A stretch of DNA of 64,000 nucleotides. Source: Rhodopirellula islandica (GTDB taxonomy: Bacteria > Planctomycetota > Planctomycetia > Pirellulales > Pirellulaceae). Made by a program: the position numbers and the translations under genes. This document shows, piece by piece, positions 49,430 to 52,805 of this stretch. Numbering within the stretch: the stretch's first letter is position 1; every line of letters starts with the position of its first letter. The notes under the pieces were generated by a model. The model saw only the letters and a list, made by a program, of their open reading frames with translations. It was not told the origin of the DNA and searched no databases. The DNA is taken from assembly GCF_001027925.1 (NCBI RefSeq), contig NZ_LECT01000030.1, forward strand, positions 1 to 64,000, read 5' to 3'.

Positions 49430-50335
49430 ATGTCATCTGATTCTCACGGCCACCTGGGACCCCCGCCGCTCATGGACCAAGCGATTGCGAAAGCCGACAC
49501 TCTCATCGAAGCCATGGGGTGGATCCGTCGTTTTCGTGGCAAAACGATGGTCATCAAACTCGGTGGCAGTCTGCTAGAGGACCAAGAAGCACTCCATCAT
49601 TTATTACTGGATGTGATCTTCATGGAAACCGTCGGACTGCGTCCGGTGGTGGTGCATGGTGGTGGCAAGGCAATCACAGCGGCAATGGCCAAAGCGGGGA
49701 TCCAAGCCCAATTCATTCGCGGCCGTCGCGTCACCGACGAGGAATCGCTGAAGGTCGTCGAGCAAGTTCTCGCGGGAGAATTGAACGTCGAACTGACCGA
49801 GATGATGGAACATCTGGGTGGCCGCGCAGTCAACTTGTCGCCACGCACCACGTGCGTTTTGAAAGGCAAAAAACTGATCGATCCCGAGGGTGATGACCTG
49901 GGATACGTTGGGGAAGTGACTGAGGTCGACCGCGACGTGATCGAAAGCCTGGCTTACACCGATCAAGTCGCCGTGATCCCCTCGTTGTGCGAGGATGAGC
50001 AGGGCCAAATGTACAACGTCAACGCTGACACCGCCGCGATGGCTGTCGCTCAATCACTCGGTGCGGACAAACTGGTTTTCCTTTCCGACGTCAACGGTGT
50101 TCGTCGCGACCCCGAAGATCCCTCCACCATCATCCCCGCGTTGTCCGCCGATGAGGCTCGCCAGTTGATCACCGATGGCGTGATCAAATCCGGCATGATC
50201 CCAAAGGTCGAGGCCTGCTTGGAAACCTTGGGACGCGGCGTGCAAAAGGTTCACATCATTGACGGTCGCTTGCGCCATTCCTTGTTGCTAGAAATCTTCA
50301 CCACGGACGGCGTGGGCACGGAGATTCACCAGTGA
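49430..50335 (+). CDS. argB: Acetylglutamate kinase
   Basis: A 301-residue amino-acid kinase, matching the usual length of about 300. ATG 49430 is chosen; the frame is open a further 105 bp upstream. The ATP site has KLGGSLLED, and the substrate site has [10 protein letters not shown] and [10 protein letters not shown]. Later [13 protein letters not shown] and LSDVNGV follow, then [16 protein letters not shown], which matches the typical C-terminal segment. It phosphorylates N-acetylglutamate, the second step of arginine synthesis. It overlaps the ArgD-like gene by GTGA. Confidence 0.95.
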
Positions 50336-51867
50336 AGGCAACTGGCAGCGACGATTGCCCGCTTGGCGAAGGCTGGATCAATGCGATCGCGGGCCGCCTC
50401 TCACCCACCGGTGGAAACTCGTGTCGTGACGCGCTGCATCAATTCGCGGACCAACCGGAATGGCGCGGCGATGTTGCGTTGCGAACCAAGATCGCAGAGC
50501 AACTTCGAACGCTGACCCAACACGATGCCTCCACGATCGCGGACTGCATCAGCGCATCGACGAAAGACCAGGCCCTGGAGCATGCTCTCGCAACGGGGCG
50601 CCGTCACCATCAGTCGCTGCAAGCCTCCGACACCAATTCTGGTGACGTCGCCTTGCCACCCAAGTGCCTGTGCTTGGTCGGCAGCGATCATGGACGCAGC
50701 ATCGTGGCCAGAATGGCAAGTGGCAAATCATCCCTGCGAGGTAGCGAGTGGCCCTTGTTGCCCGGATTCGTTCACGCTTCCACCGATCGCTTCGTTGACC
50801 GCATCGATTCGTCCACAGCCGTGGCCTTGGTGTCCCCGTGGGATTTCAACGGTGTCGGACAACCCTTGACTGCGGAATGGTGGGCGCAGTGCCGACAACG
50901 ATGCGACGAGACCGGCACCTGCTTGATCATCGACCATGGCAACCTCCCCGCAGTCGGAAACGGACACCTCTTCGCACATGAGATGGTCGCAGGAATCTCG
51001 GCTGACGCTGTGATCCTTTCAGCCGGACTGACATTTGATCTGCCCGGTGGGTTGCTGGTGCTTGGCCAATCTCTCGCATCGCATGCACAGGGTTTGGTTC
51101 CCTCCAATGATCTGGTCGGACATTTGATCTCCTCCACCCTCGCGACGCTCATTCAAACCGACGCACTCACGACAGACACGGACGCTTTCGCAATCGCATT
51201 GGCAGAACGAATTGCGACCCGTGGTTGTGTTCGCGATCTGCACGTCAGTGGTCACACCGTGGTCCTGGAACTGGACGTTGACACGCAAGCTTGGCTCGAA
51301 AAAGCCAACGCGAAGAAACTGCACGCATCGATCTGCAGCGAACACTCCGTGCTGTTCCAGCCTCCTTTGTTGATGACAAACGAAGAACACACCAACCTGA
51401 TCGACCGAATCGATGCCGTGCTGGCGGGGTTGGAACAAAATCAGCAACCGCCCCCCTCCTCCGATCAAGTGATTCCGGAGGAAGACGCTGGCCCGGAGGC
51501 AATGCCAAGCGACTCCCTTGCCGGTGCAGTCGCGACGGGGGCACTGGCAGACAGTGCACTCACAGATCCTGTGATCACCGACGAAACCCGGGAAGCAGCC
51601 CTCCCAAACGAAACAAAAGCGGATTCAGACAACGCGAACGAGGCGTTTGAAGAGGATGAATCCGAGGAAATGGTCGAGGAAGATCCTGTCGAGGAGGACG
51701 AAGAAGACGAGGACGAATTCGACGAGGAGTACGACGAAGAAGAACAGGTAGAGGAAGAGGAAGTCGACCAAGAAGAAGACGACGAACCAACCGAACAAGA
51801 TGAAACTGAACTGGAAAGCAACGAACTGGACGAGTTCGAATCCAACGAGGAAACGGAGAAACATTGA
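50332..51867 (+). CDS. Degenerate acetylornithine-aminotransferase-like protein with acidic tail
   Basis: A 511-residue protein starting at GTG 50332 inside the argB stop. Residues about 110-370 follow the class III aminotransferase order: [12 protein letters not shown] (SFHGRT region), [14 protein letters not shown] (EPIQGEGG region), [13 protein letters not shown] (D201 retained) and [16 protein letters not shown]. In the last, the PLP lysine (AKGLGGG in ArgD) is Ala231. PPLLMTNEE is the usual C-terminal loop. Residues about 437-511 are almost all Glu/Asp. Position between argB and argF shows it derives from argD, but aminotransferase activity is doubtful. Confidence 0.75.
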
Positions 51868-52805
51868 TGCGACACTTGCTCACCCTCTTTGATCTGACCC
51901 CGCAAGAGTTGCGTCAGATTTTAGCAACCGCTCAAACCCTCAAAGCCAAATTGAAGCAGGGCGAACGGCCCGCGATCTTGGAACGCTACACACTGGCGTT
52001 GCTGTTTGAAAAACCAAGTTTGCGGACCCGCGTCAGCTTTGAGACGGGCATGAATCACCTTGGGGGCAGCAGTCTGTTCCTAGGCGATGACGTCGGCTGG
52101 GGCAAACGCGAATCGCCATCCGACTTCACTCGAGTGCTCGGTCAATTCGTTGACGCAGTCGCGTGTCGCGCGAAGTCTCATGAACGTGTCGAGCAACTGG
52201 CGAAATACAACGCCGTTCCGGTCATCAACAGCCTCACTGATCTCTGCCATCCCTGCCAAGCGATTGCGGATGTGTTGACGCTGCAGGAAAGCTTCGGTGA
52301 TGTCAAAGATCGCCACATGGTGTTTGTCGGTGACGGCAACAACGTCTCCCGTTCATTGGCCCTCGCCTGTGCGATGCTGGACATTCAGTTCACGCTTGCC
52401 CGCCCAGACGGCTACGAACTCGACCAACCTTGGCTCGATCGCATCACGGCCAAATACCCGCACGCGAAACTGAACCAGATCACGGACCCAATCGCTGCGG
52501 TCCAAAACGCCGACGCGATCTACACCGACGTTTGGACCAGCATGGGACAGGAGGCGGAGTCGATTGAACGACGTGCCGCCTTCAAAGAATTCCAAGTCAA
52601 CGAGGCGTTGCTCGAAGCGGCTCCGAAAACCGCCCGCGTGCTGCATTGCTTGCCCGCCGTGCGAGGCGAGGAGATCACCGACGCGGTGATGGATGGTCCG
52701 CAGAGCGACGTGATCGAACAGGCGGGCAATCGGATGCACGCCCAAAAGGCGTTGATGATTCAACTTCTGCGTCCCGAGTGGATCGCAGAAAACATTCGCG
52801 TTTGA
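51867..52805 (+). CDS. argF: Ornithine carbamoyltransferase
   Basis: A 312-residue enzyme from ATG 51867, which overlaps the previous stop by one base (TGATG). Carbamoyl phosphate site: [13 protein letters not shown] with [13 protein letters not shown] is the second signature, and [14 protein letters not shown] plus [12 protein letters not shown] bind ornithine and complete the site. It makes citrulline from ornithine and carbamoyl phosphate in the cytoplasm. Last gene of the arg operon; a small hairpin (52817-52835) separates it from the convergent gene. Confidence 0.95.

Follow-up and report, generated by a model that had tools for sequence, protein, structure and literature searches.

The open reading frame lying between the arginine biosynthesis genes argB and argF of Rhodopirellula islandica appears to encode a degenerate acetylornithine aminotransferase (ArgD): a pseudoenzyme derived from the former argD of an argB-argD-argF cluster, replaced by another class III aminotransferase (hereafter designated AT38) and kept by selection. 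Taken as a whole, this explanation has an estimated probability of about 0.75. The locus was analysed within a stretch of 64,000 nucleotides (contig NZ_LECT01000030.1, positions 1 to 64,000), hereafter referred to as the window, and the protein is designated pseudo-ArgD. Under this explanation, an ancestor would have run both ArgD and the arginine succinyltransferase (AST) breakdown pathway, whose aminotransferase AT38, an analogue of AstC, would have made ArgD redundant. ArgD would then have been stripped of its catalytic lysine and of most contacts to the cofactor. The argD gene would have disappeared altogether from some lineages, while others, including this genome, would have kept a non-catalytic protein under purifying selection, its translation coupled to that of ArgB and ArgF.

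Pseudo-ArgD is the 511-amino-acid product of a forward-strand ORF (50332..51867) that starts with GTG and carries, according to profiles, alignment and structure, an alanine at the PLP-lysine position (Ala231, codon 51022..51024). Its aminotransferase-fold core (residues 1-373, 50332..51450) is followed by an acidic C-terminal tail (residues 373-511, 51448..51864), in which 62 of 139 residues are Asp or Glu. Upstream on the same strand is the acetylglutamate kinase gene argB (49430..50335; TIGR00761, 227.8 bits for a cut-off of 151.3, scored from 49436), with an ATG start at 49430 that was chosen in an ORF opening further upstream. Downstream, also on the forward strand, is the ornithine carbamoyltransferase gene argF (51867..52805; TIGR00658, 351.4 bits for a cut-off of 280.85; PF00185 and PF02729). 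These profile matches to both neighbours bear out the gene order described in the first-pass annotation of the sequence. The three genes are tightly packed, the GTG start of pseudo-ArgD overlapping the argB stop by four bases (GTGA, 50332-50335) and its own stop overlapping the argF ATG by one base (TGATG, 51865-51869).

The similarity to class III aminotransferases that had been read from the sequence is genuine but weak, with scores below the cut-off for all three profiles: 39.2 bits for the ArgD model TIGR00707 (cut-off 410.05), 57.8 bits for PRK01278 (cut-off 372) and 26.4 bits for PF00202 (cut-off 30.5). Alignments to acetylornithine aminotransferase models begin at residue 53 or 80 and end near residue 370, and the best sequence matches among solved structures were acetylornithine aminotransferases (E 2e-6). 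Among the best 25 of 32 NCBIfam matches, and in Pfam and PADLOC, no family other than aminotransferases and their relatives came up. A defence-related protein was also considered and rejected, as PADLOC gave no match to pseudo-ArgD. An AlphaFold2 model of residues 1-373, without the acidic tail and built with 15 orthologues, reached a mean pLDDT of 76.1 and a pTM of 0.80. Its top Foldseek match was the acetylornithine aminotransferase 1vef (E 1.3e-17), and VIA-align superimposed it on E. coli AstC (4adb) over 324 residues (Z 28.6, rmsd 3.2), with several acetylornithine aminotransferases tying with 4adb and other class III enzymes within 1-3 Z units. A class III aminotransferase fold is thus predicted for the core, and the absence of any fold match, which the first-pass annotation had named as grounds against its own proposal, was not what the model returned.

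The central claim of that annotation, a former ArgD devoid of its catalytic lysine, is upheld by alignment with the canonical ArgD of Pirellulaceae, which places Ala231 at the PLP-lysine position; the search for a conserved lysine in this column found none in any of the 28 orthologues read. An assembly error or a single mutant was rejected as the source of the lysine loss, which is common to 28/28 loci. Among 25 degenerate sequences, the column is occupied by Ala in 20, Gly in 2, and Ser, Glu or Gln in one each, whereas Lys is found in 25/25 canonical sequences; across Pirellulaceae, it is therefore the loss of lysine that is constant, the alanine itself being held in 20/25. The reported loss of the EPIQGEGG motif was also correct, the window protein reading SPWDFNGV. 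Contact positions were taken from the PLP contacts that a passage of PMC3590144 describes for E. coli AstC. The Asp facing the pyridine nitrogen (Asp201 in the window) is kept in all 25 degenerate sequences, while the Gln contacting PLP O3 is kept in five, the threonine contributed by the neighbouring subunit (FGGNP) in three, and the phosphate-loop Gly (NSG-A/T-EANE) in a single one. The position that follows this Gly is acidic in 22/25 (17 Asp, 5 Glu), and the window protein has Lys, Asp and Asp at the phosphate-loop Gly, the next position and the FGGNP threonine, respectively. The substrate Arg of HGR is kept in 16/25; the preceding Phe is lost in all 25, with Asp in its place in 20.

More broadly, 81 of the 135 ArgD-invariant columns are kept in at most 5/25 degenerate sequences, although some of these columns are N-terminal, where rows were trimmed; 31 positions are common to the degenerate and canonical ArgD of Pirellulaceae. 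At seven positions, the residue invariant in ArgD has given way to a different one, shared by 19 to 24 of the 25 sequences (Gly118Ser, Phe119Asp, Thr130Ser, Ala131Gly, Tyr148His, Glu168Ser and Lys231Ala in window numbering), including Asp119 (20), Ser168 (19), Ala231 (20), His148 (23) and Gly131 (24). Judging from the ArgD motifs, we take Phe119, Glu168 and Lys231 to be old active-site residues. Since most cofactor contacts are gone and an acid is found where the phosphate should sit, pseudo-ArgD has very probably ceased to bind PLP and lost its activity. Homology to ArgD combined with the loss of catalytic residues across the whole group makes it, as far as sequences tell, a pseudoenzyme.

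The distribution of the gene was analysed in 149 Pirellulaceae genomes, some of them incomplete, so that the counts below refer to related genomes rather than to independent events. A canonical ArgD above the TIGR00707 cut-off was found in 74/149, located between argB and argF in 70, and adjoining one of the two in the other four, with the second on another contig. The 75 ArgD-less genomes comprise 29 with a degenerate ArgD, 26 with argB beside argF, and 20 that could not be placed, argB and argF being unlinked or in another order, or either of them being missing. In 28 genomes, the degenerate ArgD is located between argB and argF, which are 1179-2359 bases apart; in the 29th (G106), it is found beside argB at a contig end. 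In the 26 genomes with no gene between them, argB and argF are separated by 98-368 bases, as measured between model matches. Within genus g37, the gene occurs in one sampled member (G138), while argB lies beside argF in five others (G036, G086, G111, G127 and G148). Sixteen loci were found in public genomes, with named carriers such as Rhodopirellula europaea 6C, R. maiorica SM1, the Planctomycetes bacteria CA13 and K23_9, and Rubripirellula metagenome genomes. A side observation concerns four genomes (G029, G049, G095 and G118) with a carbamoyltransferase that, at 181-186 bits, falls short of the argF cut-off; three of the four have two argB matches above cut-off, and these genomes possibly use an acetyl- or succinylornithine carbamoyltransferase route.

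Sequences were read for 28 of the 29 degenerate loci, the exception being G126, which was placed by a match between argB and argF. Three loci containing N (L023, L032 and L033) were left out of the tree, which kept 25 of the 28 degenerate sequences and 25 of 30 canonical loci (L053, L057, L059, L060 and L064 gave extractions below 381 residues). The row of G115 (L015) was included in the tree and column counts, even though its reading frame is shifted upstream of residue ~110. Degenerate and canonical ArgD were separated by a branch with 100/100 support, present in 100% of 200 bootstrap trees. As this branch sets the degenerate sequences apart in one group, the data are consistent with a single origin, with the root left unsure by the long branches of the EctB, BioA and AT38 outgroups.

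Pseudo-ArgD is maintained by selection as a protein. The core gave dN/dS values of 0.112 and 0.13 with two close relatives, and of 0.069-0.149 across 10 partly overlapping pairs, the values being rough for the six pairs in which dS exceeds 1; the proposal that the protein was kept is thereby borne out. For this genome and G130, which we take to be R. baltica SH1, dN/dS is 0.11 for the core and 0.44 for the fast-evolving tail, compared with 0.057 and 0.039 for argB and argF, respectively. In the same comparison, amino-acid identity is 74% for the pseudo-ArgD core vs 92% and 95% for argB and argF. The frame is unbroken over the matched core in 27/28 degenerate loci. In G115, which belongs to the genus of the window's genome, an apparent frameshift near residue 110 (L015, locus position ~1400) is either real or an assembly error. 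Overall, pseudo-ArgD gives the impression of having been retooled rather than left to decay, even if it evolves faster than its neighbours. It can nevertheless be dispensable, as indicated by this faster evolution, its absence from 5/6 sampled g37 members, and the G115 frameshift.

The acidic tail noticed in the first-pass annotation is real, but its description as nearly all Glu/Asp was overstated, the last 75 residues containing 48 Asp/Glu (64%). The densest 40 residues of the protein are 75% Asp/Glu, whereas, of the 49 non-overlapping stop-to-stop ORFs with at least 150 aa in the window, the remaining 48 reach 32.5% at most. Its conservation across Pirellulaceae did not hold up. A 40-residue stretch with at least 40% Asp/Glu is C-terminal in six sequences of genus g1, N-terminal in eight from genera g14, g46 and g29, and lacking in 14/28 degenerate orthologues, a count in which N-terminal lengths depend on the chosen start codon and three loci (L023, L032 and L033) have unknown bases. 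The tail was therefore rejected as a defining feature of the family, its end varying by lineage, and the acidic stretch was probably acquired more than once as an accessory extension. The N-terminal acidic extension of L095 / L023 displays near-perfect EEELEDD repeats beside unknown bases, which suggests that acidic tails can grow by repeat expansion.

The presence of argC and argJ in the window's genome indicates that the pathway needs an acetylornithine aminotransferase. The first-pass annotation had placed the true ArgD elsewhere in the genome, an expectation that found no support: in this 99.94%-complete genome, the search for a canonical ArgD returned five TIGR00707 matches, all below the cut-off. 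Besides pseudo-ArgD, the class III matches in this genome comprise BioA, EctB and HemL, each above the cut-off of its own model, and AT38, an unnamed enzyme (C38:157738-159123; L071, G000) in which 12 of the 13 ArgD active-site positions that were checked are conserved. With the AstC model TIGR03246, AT38 scores 102.9 bits, far below the cut-off of 609.95, and AstC analogues of this type would be missed by model-based annotation.

AT38 orthologues (E 1e-40 or better) were detected in 82/149 Pirellulaceae genomes: 28/29 with degenerate ArgD, 25/26 with argB beside argF, 19/74 with canonical ArgD, and 10/20 unplaced. Among ArgD-less genomes, AT38 was found in 59/61 in which argB and argF were both matched (in some cases incompletely or with scores under the cut-off), in 3/5 with only one of them, and in 1/9 with neither. 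Because the genomes are related, Fisher p-values computed from the AT38 and astA counts overstate independence. Two incomplete genomes, G126 (82%) and G134 (91%), have argB and argF with neither AT38 nor an ArgD above cut-off. The eight genomes having no argB, argF or ArgD above cut-off and no AT38 (G024, G034, G039, G054, G062, G089, G102 and G110) are mostly below 85% complete; G054 (94%) and G102 (91%) may be arginine auxotrophs.

In relatives, AT38 belongs to the AST arginine-breakdown operon as an AstC analogue, since it is found directly upstream of astA on the same strand, with a gap of 19-181 bases, in 45 of the 56 genomes holding both genes, and astD comes next in 3/3 loci tested (L104, L110 and L113). 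AT38 also adjoins astA in L080, and G031 and G126 have astA without AT38. All 19 genomes combining AT38 with a canonical ArgD have astA, whereas it is missing in 26/63 AT38 genomes devoid of canonical ArgD; the window's genome and five other sampled members of its genus fall in this category. A takeover by AT38 fits this pattern, in which the AST aminotransferase is kept without astA only where the canonical ArgD is gone, and AT38 probably performs the acetylornithine step. According to PMC3590144, the AstC and ArgD enzymes of E. coli can functionally stand in for each other. Phylum-wide, in 294 genomes and with an ArgD match threshold of E 1e-95, the association is weaker, 9/20 AT38 genomes vs 56/274 others having no ArgD match (p 0.02). 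Seven genomes of families f5 and f87 (G150, G182, G243, G319, G397, G416 and G423) have an AT38 homologue 38-41% identical and no ArgD above the model cut-off; in them, ArgD may have been replaced independently in the same way.

Several other explanations were weighed against the replacement of ArgD by AT38. It is rather unlikely that some other aminotransferase (EctB, for instance, or one of class I/II) carries out the ArgD step, AT38 being only a clade marker or an AST leftover. EctB is present in the window's genome and handles a substrate similar to acetylornithine, so that it could also act on acetylornithine itself; moreover, AT38 and the ArgD-less state may both track the family tree, and the candidate search was for class III enzymes. 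Four genomes of the same genus (G045, G091, G115 and G141) speak against EctB, which is probably absent from them because their best TIGR00707 matches (E 5.3e-57 to 5.5e-64) are weaker than that of EctB here (E 3.3e-75). The restriction of astA-less AT38 to genomes without canonical ArgD also speaks against this explanation, as does the absence of AT38 from 8/9 ArgD-less genomes lacking both argB and argF. Even less plausible is that pseudo-ArgD itself still performs the step, lysine-free or paired with a lysine-bearing subunit. This very unlikely scenario would account for a protein occupying the operon place of ArgD, with the pyridine-binding Asp in 25/25 and the HGR Arg in 16/25, in a genome with no other ArgD above the model cut-off. 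It is opposed by the loss of most cofactor contacts, by the Asp or Glu found in the phosphate loop of 22/25 sequences, and by the 26 genomes without a gene at this position: since 25 of these carry AT38, the pathway seems not to need pseudo-ArgD in these relatives.

The persistence of the gene may also be viewed differently. Start and stop codons overlapping both neighbours, evolution faster than that of argB and argF, absence from many relatives and the apparent frameshift in G115 would all suit a decaying, functionless relic, left open by chance or only for translational coupling between argB and argF. Coupling by itself would leave the protein sequence unconserved, yet core dN/dS is 0.07-0.15 in 10 pairs, the frame is unbroken in all but one of the 28 loci, and seven swapped invariants are each held as a new residue in 19 to 24 of 25 sequences, making a relic unlikely. 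These newly held residues (Asp119, Ser168, Ala231, His148 and Gly131) would suit a cofactor pocket turned into a PLP-free active site working outside arginine synthesis. Such neofunctionalisation is quite unlikely, as the gene sits between argB and argF in 28/29 genomes, and beside argB at the contig end in G106, and the profile matches point to nothing beyond aminotransferases and their relatives (NCBIfam best 25 of 32 matches, Pfam and PADLOC).

If pseudo-ArgD is indeed a pseudoenzyme kept after replacement by AT38, its present role may, tentatively, be to act on ArgB and/or ArgF, either as a partner protein or as a sensor of metabolites, the acidic region being a disordered appendage. A more specific and more doubtful version is that the pocket region (Asp119, His120, His148, Ser168, Asp201 and Ala231) was rebuilt as a putative metabolite-sensing site controlling ArgB and/or ArgF, with synthesis run by the AST-derived aminotransferase.

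These data outline a conserved family of ArgD-derived pseudoenzymes, in which the loss of catalysis would be explained by a predicted replacement. No description of pseudo-ArgD was found in the titles and abstract openings of the papers retrieved on planctomycete or Rhodopirellula argD, arginine biosynthesis, and pseudoenzyme aminotransferases. A single bacterial family offers a natural series, from a working enzyme to a constrained dead enzyme to a missing gene, and with AT38, an aminotransferase of an arginine-breakdown operon, named as the candidate gap-filler, it becomes possible to test directly how an enzyme of primary metabolism is replaced and how a pseudoenzyme arises. The proposal would also fill an annotation hole in R. 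baltica. A passage of PMC2754498 describes its growth on glucose and ammonium chloride in a mineral medium, so that it presumably makes its own arginine; no ArgD above the TIGR00707 cut-off was found in G130.

Compared with known systems, pseudo-ArgD is closest to ArgD itself (TIGR00707), with which it shares the predicted fold, the gene position between argB and argF, Asp201, and the His and Gly of HGRT. It differs from ArgD by lacking the PLP lysine, the phosphate loop, and the EPIQGEGG and FGGNP motifs, and by the acidic extension found in half of its orthologues. AT38 resembles AstC in adjoining astA in 45/56 genomes and preceding astD in 3/3 loci, and departs from it by scoring far below the TIGR03246 cut-off and occurring without astA in 26 genomes. 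From general background, the LCB1/SPTLC1 subunit of serine palmitoyltransferase is likewise a PLP-fold protein devoid of the lysine and kept for a biosynthetic pathway; it is, however, the obligate partner of a lysine-bearing homologue, whereas relatives live without pseudo-ArgD. Antizyme inhibitor, known as an inactive homologue of ornithine decarboxylase, offers another parallel as a former enzyme of arginine/ornithine metabolism kept as a regulator. It belongs to another PLP fold type and to other organisms, and the regulatory role that it plays is one that pseudo-ArgD may have.
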